In this document: positions 49,863-54,123 of the stretch, piece after piece | Layout of the letters: each line of letters starts with the position of its first letter | Position numbering within the stretch: position 1 is the first letter of the stretch | Origin: Bacteroidota bacterium | GTDB taxonomy: Bacteria; Bacteroidota; Ignavibacteria; Kapaibacteriales; UBA2268 | Reading direction: 5' to 3' | Assembly (NCBI GenBank): GCA_004322215.1 | Contig: SCSM01000039.1 | Coordinates: forward strand, 1 to 64,000 | DNA length: 64,000 bases | Translations under genes and position numbers: made by a program | Notes under the pieces: model-generated | Seen by the model: only the letters and a program-made list of their open reading frames with translations | Database searches by the model: none | Told to the model about the DNA's origin: nothing

Positions 49863-49895
49863 GAAAATAAATAAATTCAGGATATAGAAAATGAA

Positions 49896-49932
49896 AAAAA
49901 GCGGATGAACAATATCAGTTCACCCGCTTTTT
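49896..49932. terminator. Terminator of the dsrABD operon (bidirectional)
   Basis: AAAAAGCGGATGAAC and GTTCACCCGCTTTTT form a 15-bp stem with one mismatch around a 7-base loop, with A/T-runs on both sides. It lies 18 bp past the dsrD stop codon and can also end transcription from the plus-strand aspartyl protease gene. Confidence 0.88.
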
Positions 49933-49949
49933 CCTTCACTAATTACTGG

Positions 49950-50198
49950 TCAGTTTGCCGCACCCTCTTTATGAGGAACTTCGAGAAAACTGCCGCCGAA
50001 ATATGTATAAACAAGCCGCCCGTTATTCACCAATTCCTTGATGGCATCCTTGCATAGCTGTTTATCTACGTTACCCTCGCCGAACATTTCAATGCTTGCT
50101 TTTTGTAAATCCGTTGCCTTCCATTTCTTCATCCCCATCGTATCTTTCACCATTTTATACATTGCATCAGCGAGTTCCATTACCGGTACTTGAGCCAT
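49950..50198 (-). CDS. dsrD: Dissimilatory sulfite reductase-associated protein DsrD
   Basis: The 82-residue protein is a small winged-helix protein: 'ATDLQKASIEMFGEGNVDKQLCKDAIKELVNNGRLVYTYFGGSFLEVPHKEGAAN'. Size, position after dsrB and the basic-acidic tail fit DsrD. In sulfate reducers DsrD binds DsrAB and has been reported to activate it; its presence is used as a marker of the reductive pathway. GAGG just before the ATG supports the start. Primary sequence identity to classical DsrD looks modest, so the call leans partly on context. Confidence 0.85.
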   Translation of the reverse strand: MAQVPVMELADAMYKMVKDTMGMKKWKATDLQKASIEMFGEGNVDKQLCKDAIKELVNNGRLVYTYFGGSFLEVPHKEGAAN

Positions 50199-50214
50199 TT
50201 CTGCCTCCTATTAA

Positions 50215-51297
50215 TTAATATGTTAAATGAGCAGAACGCTTAAATGTGAGTCCTGCATGCTTAAAGTCGTCTATGTGTTCCTTACGGAATTCAAGTCCTG
50301 ACATACGGAAGAATTTGGGCCAGCCGATTCTCTCAATCCATTCGCCCATTCTTTCGTGTTTGTGTGCATTCTTAGCCCAAAGTTCGACAAGGTTATTAAT
50401 AGCATCCGTTACTTCTGGCCAGCGCGGCGGATTGTTCGGAATGAAAGAAATTGCAAGTTTCGAGAACATCGGCTCATGCCTTGCATTCGACACCTTGCCG
50501 CCTATCCAAATCGAAATTCCGTCGTTCAACGGATTTGCTATCGGAAGTGCCGGGCATACTGTGAAACAGTTTGCACAGAACATACATTTATCTTCCAAAA
50601 TTTCCACACCCTGCTTGCCGTCATAAACAACGGGCCTAATTGCCGCAGTGGGACATGATGCAACCACATTCGGCACCTCGCACATCTTCGGCAAATTTTC
50701 CTTGTCAATTTTCGGTGGGCGCCTGTGAATACCAAGTATGGCTATATCCGAGCAATGAACCGCACCGCACATATTCAGACAGCATGCAAGTGCTATCCTT
50801 AGCTTGCCGGGGAGTTCCATTGAAGTGAAATGCCCGATACATTCATCCATTACTGCTTTAACTATACCTGAAGCATCTGTTGCGGCAGAGTGGCAGTGAA
50901 TCCATCCCTGTGTATGTACAATACTTGTAATTGAATTTCCTGTACCGCCGACAGGATGTCCTAACGCATTAAGTTCTGCTATCAAGGGTTCAATATTTTG
51001 CTCTTTTGTAACTAAAAATTCAACATTATGTCTCGATGTAAATCTTAAATAACCGTCACTGTATTTTTCTGCTAAATCAGCAAATTTGCGAATCTTATTT
51101 GTACTTAGAAGACGCGGCGAACCGGCTCTGACCGAGTAAAGCTTTGCCCCGTTGTCCGCTACATGCACCAGCACACCCGGACGTGGAATTTCGTGGTATT
51201 TCCATTTACCGTAATTTTCCTTGATAATCGGGGGCAGAAACTTCGAAAAATGCGGCGGTCCGATATCTGTTTTTCTTTGAATCACTTCTTCTGCCAT
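50215..51297 (-). CDS. dsrB: Dissimilatory sulfite reductase beta subunit
   Basis: The 360-residue protein has DsrB landmarks: '[27 protein letters not shown]' with C135, '[18 protein letters not shown]' with C172, C173 and C177, and an inserted ferredoxin domain '[18 protein letters not shown]' (C238, C241, C244). The 37-residue gap between C135 and C172 equals that in Desulfovibrio DsrB. '[15 protein letters not shown]' is conserved. With DsrA it forms the alpha2beta2 enzyme that reduces sulfite at siroheme-[4Fe-4S]. It lies 51 bp after dsrA and 16 bp before dsrD. Confidence 0.97.
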
Positions 51298-51348
51298 TTT
51301 TATTTTCCTTTTTATTTATTTTTAATATTTGTTTCTTATAAAAAATTG

Positions 51349-52548
51349 TCATTCACCTTCTTCGAAGTACTCTTCGTAGAATATATACGGATTCTCTCTC
51401 GGATGAGATACCATATCGGGTTGCGGCTCCAATCCGACTGCTTCGAGGAAATTACCCATTCCTACTCTTTGAATGAATTCGCCTATTCTTTCACGGTTCT
51501 TTCCTTCTTCGCACCAGAGGTCCCACATATTTTCGATTAACTCCCAAAGCTCGGATTCATCAAATGGCTCATCGAGTTTAATAAAAGGAACCAGTACCGA
51601 AGAAAGCAATGCTCCTTCTACAATCGGGGCTTTTGAGCCGACAAGCACAACTGCTCCCCTGTCTTTCCCGGGTGCAAGTGCTTTAGGCATTACATTGATG
51701 CAGTGCATGCAATGCCTGCAACTGCTGTTGTCAATTTTCAAATCCTTTCCGTCCCAATCCATACATTTGCCGGGGCACATCATCACGATTTCTTTTAGGA
51801 TGTCAGTACCGTTCTTTGCATATTCCCGGACTTTCTGCATATCAACCTGGATTTCATCTCTCCATGTTCCTATGATTGAAATATCGGCACGCGCAACCGA
51901 TGCGACGCAATCATTAGGACAGCCGGCCATTTTGAACTTCATTTTATAGGGGAATGCCGGTCTGTGAAGTTCATCCTGGAATTTGTTTGTGATGAAATGT
52001 GTCAATCCCATCGTATCATAGCAAGCCCATTCGCATCTCGCCTTGCCGCAGCAACAGCTTGGTGTTCTTACGTCGGAACCCGAACCGCCAAGGTCAAATC
52101 CTGCATCAGTTAGTTTCTTGAAAACCGGTTCCAGTTCTTCTGTTCTTGTTCCGAGAAAAACAATGTCTCCAGTCGAACCGTGCATATTTGTCAAACCCGA
52201 ACCATGAGCATCCCAAATGTCGCACAAGGTTCTTAGTGCTTCCGATGTGTAGAACCAACCCGATGGCTGATTAACACGCATTGTGTGAAAATGTGAAATA
52301 TTCGGAAATTTTTCGGATAAGTCGGTATATCTACCGATTACACCGCCACCATAACCCATTACCCCGACTATTCCGCCATGCTTCCAGTGACCTTTCTTTT
52401 CGGTGTAGGACTGTTCTAAAAGTCCCAGGAGGTCGTTTGCCATAGGATTAGTCTCGGCTGCGGATTTAATTTCCCTGACGAAACTGGGCCATCCGCCTTT
52501 TTCAAGTTCATCAAGCAGAGGGGTTTCATACTTTTTGTCAACTGCCAT
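51349..52548 (-). CDS. dsrA: Dissimilatory sulfite reductase alpha subunit
   Basis: The 399-residue protein has '[18 protein letters not shown]' (C166-x5-C172) and '[17 protein letters not shown]' (C210-x3-C214), the four Cys expected to hold the [4Fe-4S]-siroheme centre. The 38-residue spacing between pairs matches Desulfovibrio DsrA. The ferredoxin domain has C258, C262, C277, C280 and C283. '[11 protein letters not shown]' and '[11 protein letters not shown]' are DsrA signatures. It is somewhat shorter than the roughly 437-residue classical DsrA. AGGGAG just before the ATG is a strong ribosome-binding site. First gene of the operon. Confidence 0.97.
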
Positions 52549-52829
52549 TTTAACTCCCTAAAATTTTTAATATCTTTGTTTATTAATTTGGTTAAATCTA
52601 TTATTTAATCAATTCTTTCTTCTGAAATTCAGTGTGATTCTAATTGTGCAGAATTTCAATATTTCTGCTTTCTTCATTACTTAACTAATTGTAAATTACT
52701 CTATTGCTTGCTCGATTGAAACTCAAATCAGTAGTTTGTAATTGGACTGTTGCAGTATTGAAACAAACTTAACATTATAGGAACAAAGTGGTTATAAAAT
52801 TGTGAAATTTTTCGTTTTTTATAAAAAAA
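52549..52829 (-). promoter_or_regulatory. Upstream region of the dsrABD operon
   Basis: This AT-rich 281-bp leader separates the operon from the terminator of the preceding gene, so the dsr promoter must lie in it. A strong Shine-Dalgarno sequence (AGGGAG) is at its dsrA end. I saw no -24/-12 (sigma-54) site, no complete FNR-type TTGAT...ATCAA palindrome and no open frame. Exact promoter position is not determined. Confidence 0.4.
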
Positions 52830-52853
52830 AACACCGGTCATCCGACCGGTGTT
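52830..52853. terminator. Terminator after the LEA14-like gene
   Basis: AACACCGGTC and GACCGGTGTT form a perfect 10-bp stem around ATCC, with an A-run on one side and T-rich sequence on the other. It separates the lipoprotein gene (stop at 52882) from the dsr operon promoter. Confidence 0.9.
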
Positions 52854-52881
52854 TGCTTTTATAATTAATACTAAAATAAAT

Positions 52882-53517
52882 TTATTGTCTGAATTCTTTA
52901 TCCACAATAGTTAATCTTCCGGGATAGCTTATGGGCCCTAATGGAGTAGTAACAGTCGGATGGGCATCGAGTTTGAGCCGTGTCGGACTGCCGCCAACTC
53001 CTCCGATATTCATTGCAAGATTGATAACCTTGTCATAACCCTGCTTACCAAAAAATTCATAGAGGTCAAGTCCCATTGCCAAAGGAATAATGGTTGACTG
53101 ACCTGTTCCGGGAACTTCGACAGGAGTAGCAATATCGCCGTTGATGGTTTTTACATCATCGATGTATAAGTTCCAATCCAGATGATTGATGGTTGCATTT
53201 GCCTGTCGTGTTCCTCCTGCTTTCCCATCATTTGGATTTTTGGCTGCAACATTCAGAACAAATTCGGCAGGAAATTTTTTCGTGGCAAATGCCTGGGTCA
53301 GCTTCAATCCGTCAGTCAGTGAAAAATCATTGACAGATTTTTTATGAGTAACATCAATTCCGGCAACTTTGAATCCATTTACATTTTCCAACTTGAACTG
53401 GAGCCGTTTTAAATCTGCAAGTGTCTGCGAAATCTGTTTTATAGTGCCGCAGCTTTGAACAATAATTAAAGAAATGAATAAAACTGCAGAAGCCATTAAT
53501 AAATAAAATTTCTTCAT
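52882..53517 (-). CDS. LEA14-like (LEA type 2) lipoprotein
   Basis: The start at 53517 gives the lipoprotein signal MKKFYLLMASAVLFISLIIVQSC. The mature protein of about 190 residues has one or two LEA-2/WHy-like beta-sandwiches ('LKRLQFKLENVNGFKVAGIDV', 'FPAEFVLNVAAKNPNDGKAG', 'TINHLDWNLYIDDVKTINGDI', 'VPGTGQSTIIPLAMGLDL'). The 'NPN' and 'G....V.v.g.g...i.v' pattern is typical. Bacterial members are periplasmic lipoproteins of unclear role. It has its own terminator. Confidence 0.82.
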   Translation of the reverse strand: MKKFYLLMASAVLFISLIIVQSCGTIKQISQTLADLKRLQFKLENVNGFKVAGIDVTHKKSVNDFSLTDGLKLTQAFATKKFPAEFVLNVAAKNPNDGKAGGTRQANATINHLDWNLYIDDVKTINGDIATPVEVPGTGQSTIIPLAMGLDLYEFFGKQGYDKVINLAMNIGGVGGSPTRLKLDAHPTVTTPLGPISYPGRLTIVDKEFRQ

Positions 53518-53582
53518 TTTATACCTCATTATAAATAATAGTTTTAATAAATGTCGGATAAATCAGAATTATAGTATAAAAA

Positions 53583-53634: not shown

Positions 53635-54123
53635 TTAAGACAAACCTTCTCTTTTCAGAAAATCATCAACAGTAGTACCTGAGGCACTTATTGTACCGTC
53701 TATGATTTTTTCAATTGTTTTCATCAATGCAGAAGATTTTTGCTGTTCCATGTTTAAAGTGGAAAGCAATTTTACTTTAGCAATCAGCAATTTTTCTTCA
53801 ATTGGTTTGCTCAAAAAGTCATCGGCACCAGCTTCGATTGATTTAATCTGGTTTGCGACATCATTAAGTGCAGTGACTATAACGACCGGAATATGCCTTG
53901 TGACATCCTTCTCTTTTAGTTTCTTAACCGTTTCATAACCGTCGAGCCGGGGCATCATAACATCGAGGACTATAGCATCGGGAAGCTTCTGTTCAACTTT
54001 CTCGAGGCAATCTATTCCGTCATAAGCTTCGACTGCTTCGTAGCCGCTTGCTTCCAAATATCTGCGGAGAAGCTTGGTTGTAATTCTGTTATCGTCAACA
54101 ACAAGAATAAAAGGTTTTTTCAT
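53635..54123 (-). CDS. Single-domain response regulator with short C-terminal extension
   Basis: This 162-residue protein is a CheY-like receiver: 'PFILVVDDNRITTKLLRRYL' (acidic pocket), phospho-acceptor Asp in 'DAIVLDVMMPRLDGYETV', Thr switch in 'IPVVIVTALND', and 'GADDFLSKPIEEKLL' (conserved Lys). About 40 residues follow ('MKTIEKIIDGTISASGTTVDDFLKREGLS') without a DNA-binding domain. It likely works through protein partners. No kinase is adjacent; the hybrid kinase at 8980 and the partial kinase at the window end are candidates only. Confidence 0.9.
   Translation of the reverse strand: MKKPFILVVDDNRITTKLLRRYLEASGYEAVEAYDGIDCLEKVEQKLPDAIVLDVMMPRLDGYETVKKLKEKDVTRHIPVVIVTALNDVANQIKSIEAGADDFLSKPIEEKLLIAKVKLLSTLNMEQQKSSALMKTIEKIIDGTISASGTTVDDFLKREGLS

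Follow-up and report, generated by a model that had tools for sequence, protein, structure and literature searches.

The subject of this analysis is a dissimilatory sulfite reductase operon, dsrABD, made up of dsrA, dsrB and a small third gene. It lies in a 64,000-nucleotide stretch of DNA, hereafter the window, from a member of the Bacteroidota (Ignavibacteria; Kapaibacteriales; UBA2268; GenBank assembly GCA_004322215.1, contig SCSM01000039.1, positions 1 to 64,000 of the forward strand). In the direction of reading, the operon and its predicted ends are as follows:

52829 to 52854, minus strand: predicted intrinsic terminator-like hairpin between the upstream gene and dsrA
51349 to 52548, minus strand: dsrA, dissimilatory sulfite reductase alpha subunit, 399 amino acids (TIGR02064, 563.9 bits)
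50215 to 51297, minus strand: dsrB, dissimilatory sulfite reductase beta subunit, 360 amino acids (TIGR02066, 486.5 bits)
49950 to 50198, minus strand: DsrD-like small winged-helix protein, 82 amino acids, named from its position after dsrB and a structure model
49894 to 49934, minus strand: predicted intrinsic terminator-like hairpin of 17 pairs, after the third gene

In a profile search of the open reading frames (ORFs) of the window, DsrA and DsrB both exceeded the curated family cut-offs by a wide margin (392.85 bits for TIGR02064 and 341.5 bits for TIGR02066), and they align over nearly their full length with solved sulfite reductases (DsrA with 3mm5_A and 2v4j_A, DsrB with 3or2_B and 2v4j_B). 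In these alignments the siroheme-cluster cysteines of DsrA (C166/C172 as C-x5-C and C210/C214 as C-x3-C), its ferredoxin-cluster cysteines (277/280/283) and the corresponding cysteines of DsrB (CC-x3-C at 172 to 177, and C238/241/244/248) are all in place, as the initial annotation had claimed from the letters of the sequence. The three genes share the minus strand, with gaps of 51 bp between dsrA and dsrB and 16 bp between dsrB and the third gene, and each is preceded by a GGAG- or GGAA-like ribosome site. Because predicted terminators flank them on both sides, the three genes look like one unit; the arms of the downstream hairpin are conserved in three congeners, and about 280 bp separate the upstream hairpin from the dsrA start. 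The operon, with a genuine third gene, and both of its ends stand as they were initially drawn, and it is true of the window that no dsrC, dsrMKJOP, aprAB or sat lies beside it. The same account had counted at least seven cargo proteins of the type IX secretion system (T9SS) in this DNA, and when 29 window ORFs were scanned with the T9SS sorting-domain model TIGR04183, 7 of them exceeded the cut-off (2/9, 4/10 and 1/10). A scan for sigma-70-type promoters was uninformative (11 matches, with 10.3 expected by chance), and an Rfam scan of the window at the gathering threshold returned one tRNA and no known leader RNA.

The third gene needs more care in its naming. An AlphaFold2 model of the 82-amino-acid protein is a winged helix, with a predicted local distance difference test score of 84.6. 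Of 80 named reference loci, 56 have a homologue directly 3' of dsrB, among them loci from Kapabacteria, Zixibacteria and Acidobacteria; among the 71 loci whose sequence extends far enough past dsrB, the count is 55. A gene at this position has been called dsrD in print (PMC6338057; here and below, published work is cited from the accessible portions of each text). One fold search with the model returned DsrD 1wq2 at rank 47 (E 0.061, template modelling scores 0.56/0.68) amid many winged helices, and 1wq2 was not among the 50 matches listed in another. A sequence search of the PDB with the same protein gave no DsrD match, and its RNF4 matches were judged spurious; as a control, a Desulfobulbaceae protein from the same position matched the solved DsrD 1ucr at E 1.4e-8. 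An alignment of the DsrD-like proteins matched the Desulfobulbaceae DsrD with 4.5% probability and a 70-amino-acid Syntrophobacterales protein in the same position with 88.8% probability. Two results speak against a DsrD at this place. The Pfam DsrD model (PF08679) found nothing in the 82-amino-acid protein at 0.001, and among 13 of its relatives one match came up at E 0.095; in addition, 16 of the 71 named loci with room for it have no homologue after dsrB, some of these having another small gene there. The small winged-helix DsrD of the initial annotation is thus upheld in its modelled fold and its position and falls short at a significant Pfam DsrD match. The gene is real, and we name its product DsrD-like rather than DsrD. 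It might activate DsrAB.

The initial annotation had suggested searching the rest of the genome for dsrC, dsrMK, aprAB, sat and qmo, and all of them were found (genome of 4,198,283 bases in 47 contigs, 96.7% complete). Matches above the curated cut-offs comprise dsrA, dsrB, dsrC, aprA, qmoC, sat, DsrM, DsrK, DsrJ, DsrO and DsrP, with a single aprA match, four matches to the DsrC domain, and no second DsrA above cut-off in the genome. On the same contig as the window (C5), sat, aprB, aprA, two small genes and qmoC lie at 232-239 kb and a qmoA- and qmoB-like pair at 98-101 kb; the pair was named by HdrA homology and its pairing, and aprB by position and eye, no curated model being above cut-off. 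With the discovery of this pair, the idea of an incomplete Qmo complex (only qmoC beside aprBA) was dropped. A hyp145-dsrL-dsrC-dsrM2-dsrK2 unit stands on contig C24, where the DsrL-like protein is above the NF009410 cut-off and M2 and K2 are below those of their models; the DsrC of this unit (110 amino acids) has both C-terminal cysteines, C98 and C109, as in catalytic DsrC. Contig C2 carries dsrT, which was named by position and has an RsbRD_N domain, together with dsrMKJOP, and contig C3 carries dsrN (457 amino acids, 49% identical to its counterpart in the gene island of other genera described below). In their observed content, sat, aprBA, qmoABC, dsrAB, dsrC and dsrMK(JOP) form a complete Dsr sulfate-reduction pathway in one genome.

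Several genes around these loci are worth recording in their own right. The 145-amino-acid protein encoded before dsrL, hyp145 (L008:12851-13288, minus strand), is conserved: 21 of the 80 named loci have a homologue. It has no Pfam match. It is modelled with confidence as a four-helix bundle in which Glu/His are conserved and which is weakly ferritin-like, and Foldseek returned nothing below E 0.001 for it, with weak CopM and ferritin-like rows. The two small genes between aprA and qmoC (L011:11500-12571, plus strand) encode Zn-ribbon-like and CxxCxxCC proteins, for which matches also turned up close to aprBA in Acidobacteria and in other phyla. On contig C6 of the window genome, a 217-amino-acid tandem double-DsrC protein that lacks the catalytic C-terminal cysteine pair (L009:9699-10352, minus strand; ~27.7-28.3 kb of the contig) adjoins an HdrA/HdrBC-like and Mvh-type hydrogenase cluster with hyp genes. 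The same contig encodes a second DsrC with the last cysteine only, a DsrE-like protein and a Sqr-like flavoprotein, recognised by eye (L010:8604-11465, minus strand), possibly a sulfide-oxidation or sulfur-trafficking set. On contig C14 (L164:9501-12698, plus strand) a DsrK/HmcF-like iron-sulfur protein is fused to a receiver domain resembling the DVU0259 family and is followed by a PAS histidine kinase; a similar DsrK-like/receiver and kinase pair adjoins dsrT and dsrMKJOP in the congener G439. In the window genome, nucleotidyltransferase/HEPN-like genes (by eye) separate dsrT from dsrM (L165:11818-13389), and in the congeners G437 and G438 dsrM appears directly after dsrT.

In other genera most of these genes stand together. 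There the order sat-aprB-aprA-ZnR-YkgJ-qmoC-dsrA-dsrB-dsrD-dsrN-hyp145-dsrL-dsrC-dsrM2-dsrK2 is contiguous where the contig permits, and six loci show the full island (L042, L170, L172, L173, L177 and L178). L171 and L176 have no hyp145 match, L171 has an extra DsrK-like match before dsrM2, and L176 ends within dsrL; in L174 and L175 the view of the island is cut by contig ends. In the window's genus, in contrast, dsrABD is separated from the rest of the island in all four species, and in each of them it has the same two upstream neighbours:

52882 to 53529, minus strand: putative lipoprotein (by eye), 215 amino acids, adjacent to the operon in all four congeners
53635 to 54123, minus strand: receiver-only response regulator, 162 amino acids (PF00072), second upstream neighbour in all four congeners

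A Pfam search with the putative lipoprotein gave no match. In the three congeners, dsrMKJOP genes are found upstream of these neighbours at a distance of a few kb; those of the window genome are on another contig. Downstream of dsrABD, an M1-peptidase/aldo-keto-reductase pair recurs in G438 and an aspartic-protease-like gene in G437; the contig of G439 ends soon after dsrD. In the window genome, dsrABD, qmoAB and sat-aprBA-qmoC are far apart on a single 251-kb contig, so the split is not an assembly effect, and a chimeric contig is very unlikely, since the lipoprotein and receiver genes recur upstream in all three congeners. Read from the assemblies, this gene order suggests that dsrABD is a piece broken from an island which sister genera keep contiguous. 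In the window's genus that island would have broken into dsrABD, sat-aprBA-qmoC, hyp145-dsrL-dsrC-dsrM2K2 and, in the window genome, dsrN alone; qmoAB and dsrT/dsrMKJOP stand elsewhere.

Six of the scattered units share a promoter-like element. In front of dsrA it comprises:

52736 to 52752, minus strand: 17-bp motif CAACAGTCCAATTACAA, a candidate activator site, starting 204 bp before the dsrA start
52691 to 52698, minus strand: TAATTTAC, resembling TAnnTTTG and a candidate -7 promoter box, 54 bases on from the motif start

The dsrA and hyp145 leaders are near identical in several blocks over ~80 bp. The motif pattern, [CA][AC]ACA-N5-ATTACA[AG], was drawn from the aligned leaders of five units in four species and was picked after these two leaders had been viewed, so the counts that follow are not blind. 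It occurs 6 times in 258,735 bases of the genome's own DNA, both strands included, versus 0.5 (standard deviation 0.67) by a first-order model, and all six sites precede sulfate units, namely dsrA, hyp145, sat, qmoA, dsrM and dsrT. In the comparison with background DNA, there are six matches in 236 kb of targeted own-genome DNA versus one in a control of 400,000 bases (20 stretches chosen regardless of sulfur genes, with 308 ORFs of at least 80 amino acids), the scans covering ~0.64 Mb of the 4.2-Mb genome. The sole background match (L252:7480) lies 193 bp before the ORF of a FadL/OmpP1-like outer-membrane protein (by eye); it could be a further regulon member or a chance occurrence. When the letters of the motif were permuted, 4968 of 5000 versions reached none of the six leaders, and the best reached three. 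The conservation observed across the four species amounts to 22 sites: dsrA, hyp145, sat, qmoA and dsrT are preceded by the motif in every species and dsrM in two of the four; in the two congeners where dsrM has no site of its own, it follows dsrT.

A TAnnTTTG-like box is found at exactly offset 54 in all 22 sites (4 or 5 of 6 fixed letters), and this offset had the highest mean of those tried (4.36, with a background mean of 1.78). TAnnTTTG at -7 together with TTTG at about -33 has been deduced as the consensus that the main sigma factor recognises in Bacteroides fragilis (quoted in PMC7366714). The motif lies immediately ahead of a promoter-like box, a placement that would suit an activator. 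We take its 11-base ACA repeat to resemble the sites of OmpR/PhoB-type regulators. Before sat in other genera, ACA-N8-ACA with a similar box (by eye) at the same spacing was found in six of seven judged genomes from four genera, a count to be read against the 6-18% of such sat-upstream stretches in which a bare ACA-N8-ACA arises by chance. The genome G424 was left out of this count because its sat is at the edge of the stretch, and in G411, G397, G422 and G425 the sat start codon is inexact, making the searched stretch approximate there.

Such a motif might also belong to promoters in general, or be left over from promoter duplication, with no regulator dedicated to it, and some observations favour this explanation. 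The promoters of dsrA and hyp145 are near copies of each other, as are those of dsrM and dsrT, which leaves only four independent promoter families; the second box is like the general Bacteroidota -7 box; and matches with one mismatch are not enriched (44 in the 400-kb background and 34 in the 236 kb of targeted DNA). Further points weigh against a common switch: offset 26 agrees nearly as well with the -7 consensus (mean 3.95), dsrN in the window genome has no motif, the genome without ACA-N8-ACA in its approximate sat-upstream stretch is G411, and no regulator was found. Set against the general-feature explanation are the one exact match in a background of 308 ORFs and the like site before sat in most of the other-genus genomes judged, where the island is unsplit, and we consider it unlikely, if deserving of serious attention. 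Coordinated control of the island fragments through the motif is the reading we prefer. On the evidence of the leader sequences, the near-copy promoters suggest that promoter copies accompanied the break-up of the island. Literature searches found no published account of a genus-wide split with a common element, or of such a motif in Kapabacteria, in material that did not extend to Figure 5 of Thiel et al.

The closest named matches of the DsrA are ChocPot_Mid and SKW166 (85%) and R1_Bin (79%), all of them Kapabacteria or grouping with them. Within the window's family, 14 of 54 genomes have dsrA above the cut-off, including 4/4 of its genus, and in a sample of the phylum 58 of 395 do, these being the window genome, G357 and members of one other family (f26), which is Chlorobiaceae from the gene order of G071. 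A DsrAB tree was built from 53 rows (39 of the 80 named loci, nine of the family and five Chlorobiaceae as outgroup, after one Chlorobiaceae locus, L016, had been dropped for its cut DsrB); proteobacterial oxidative and archaeal types are not among its rows. The window and its congeners fall inside a Kapabacteria clade of 12 rows (support 95.6/91), far from Chlorobiaceae and adjoining sequences labelled Deferribacteres, Calditrichaeota, LCP-89 and Tariuqbacter, with weakly supported branching among the genera within the clade. The tree that the initial annotation had asked for, as far as the sampled types go, thereby groups these proteins with the reductive bacterial type and not with the oxidative enzymes of Chlorobiaceae. 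In the same family, the DsrAB of G411 (L171) groups with three metagenome-assembled genomes (MAGs) labelled Bacteroidetes (95.9/86), a placement that suggests replacement of the island or gene, or a separate gain. An RpoB tree was built from 29 rows (13 dsr-positive and 14 of 40 dsr-negative genomes of the family plus two Chlorobiaceae, with the fragmentary RpoB of G402 omitted); on it the dsr-positive rows require six changes, three of them forced by well-supported branches, from which it follows that dsr has been lost or transferred within the family. The window's genus shows no such variation. Sulfate-reducing Kapabacteria have been predicted in print since 2019 (Thiel 2019, Kadnikov 2020, Diao 2023 and a 2023 study of an Arctic spring; PMC6338057, PMC7509429, PMC10591310, PMC10494364). 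The statement that sulfate or sulfite reducers are rarely described in such lineages is out of date, and the window organism is a further member of this published, predicted lineage.

A second question is whether the pathway could instead oxidise sulfide or sulfur, like that of the related Chlorobiaceae, or could switch direction. DsrL is common to sulfur oxidisers too, and the DsrL-like protein present here tempers the reductive reading. The DsrE-like protein and the second DsrC near a Sqr-like gene (by eye, 50-54 kb of C6) would also suit an oxidiser, as would the oxygen respiration genes reported in Kapabacteria (PMC7509429, PMC10494364). On the other side, the DsrAB are far from the Chlorobiaceae enzymes in the tree, a DsrD-like gene follows dsrB and is absent from the two Chlorobiaceae loci read, and no dsrEFH lies beside dsrAB in the window, to which the search for dsrEFH was confined; none of the marks of an oxidative rDsr (clustering with rDsrAB, no DsrD, dsrEFH beside dsrAB) was seen. 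Diao 2023 moreover assigned reductive DsrAB, DsrD and DsrL-2C to this family (PMC10591310). We judge an oxidative or direction-switching pathway improbable. From the reductive-type DsrAB and the DsrD-like gene we infer that flux is in the reductive direction, in agreement with the argument for sulfite reduction made in the initial annotation and with the complete pathway in the genome.

The remaining alternative, that dsrABD is a recently transferred cassette inserted independently of the rest of the pathway, recalls the self-contained transferred module that had been expected at first and would fit the solitary dsrABD of the window, the patchy occurrence of dsr-positive genomes in the family and the grouping of the G411 DsrAB with MAGs labelled Bacteroidetes (transfer or replacement may thus happen in the family), but it was rejected as highly implausible on the grounds of the same upstream neighbours in three congeners, a genus DsrAB that sits with most of the family, the presence of the rest of the pathway, the shared promoter-like element and a GC content of 44-46%, like that of tyrS, groEL and aprA of the same genome.

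Our preferred interpretation, to which we assign a probability of roughly 80%, is that dsrABD probably encodes a reductive bacterial-type sulfite reductase with a winged-helix partner in a Kapabacterium that has the complete pathway, and that the fragments of the former island are probably switched together through the motif. There is good support for reductive sulfite/sulfate reduction in this T9SS-bearing bacterium of the Bacteroidota. By the established biochemistry of these families, Sat and AprBA would turn sulfate into sulfite with electrons from QmoABC, and DsrAB would reduce the sulfite, loading sulfur on DsrC. Electrons would be supplied by DsrMK(JOP) and probably DsrL, with a membrane quinol source acting through Qmo and DsrMK(JOP). 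A single regulator, most likely an activator, would probably switch all motif-bearing units together (all but dsrN). Its signal could come from the PAS histidine kinases and receiver proteins beside the loci, which include a fusion to a DsrK-like Fe-S protein. As to how this arrangement arose, we somewhat favour a history in which a regulator of ACA-N8-ACA sites held the island through an ancestral sat promoter and the fragments received copies of that promoter, thereby staying one regulon. The organism is T9SS-bearing and has the full pathway in a lineage already published as a predicted sulfate reducer; the new point, if true, is how a respiratory gene island can break apart yet stay co-regulated. 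Sulfate respiration in an uncultured lineage thought to switch between oxygen and sulfate would then have a candidate control element in the motif, one that does not resemble the palindrome of Desulfovibrio.

Among known systems, Candidatus Thermonerobacter thiotrophicus and the MAG GWB2_35_12 (Kapabacteria/OPB56; PMC6338057) have the same pathway genes as the window genome. The DsrA of GWB2_35_12, according to the table of that paper, and the DsrA of the window are alike 85% identical to ChocPot bin-8, and from this identity and a like GC content GWB2_35_12 probably belongs to the window's genus. In the window's genus the island is split, with dsrABD as an operon of its own. For the Rifle genome GWB2_35_12, Thiel et al. 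(PMC6338057) speak of 'minor differences in the organization', and these may be the same split arrangement; a shared promoter motif is not described for either organism in the accessible text of that paper. Other sulfate reducers of UBA2268 likewise combine reductive DsrAB, DsrD, a DsrL and the pathway in one genome (PMC10591310, PMC7509429, PMC10494364). One of the published Kapabacteria, Ch6, has a closed genome of 2,660,650 bp with the sulfate reduction pathway (PMC7509429), and its island (L170) is contiguous, in contrast to the window's genus.

The rDsr systems of Chlorobiaceae (G106 and G071 of f26), from the same phylum, also include DsrAB, DsrL, a DsrT-like protein and DsrMKJOP. Their DsrA is 46% identical to that of the window (three f26 sequences aligned), and the genes, named by eye, run dsrC-A-B-L-E-F-H-T-M-K-J-O-P in G071 and dsrA-B-L in G106, with no DsrD-like gene after dsrB in either. 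In the HcpR/CRP-type regulon of Desulfovibrio (PMC545781), a motif before scattered sulfate genes (sat, apsAB) was likewise recognised by comparative genomics. The HcpR signal is a palindrome, TTGTGA-N6-TCACAA, which is not reported before dsrAB in the accessible text of that paper; in the six leaders of the window genome its best matches differ from it at 3 to 5 of 12 positions, a level reached by 65 to 300 of 300 shuffles. Unlike the HcpR palindrome, the window motif is an ACA-N8-ACA repeat at a fixed distance to a promoter-like box, and it stands before dsrAB as well.

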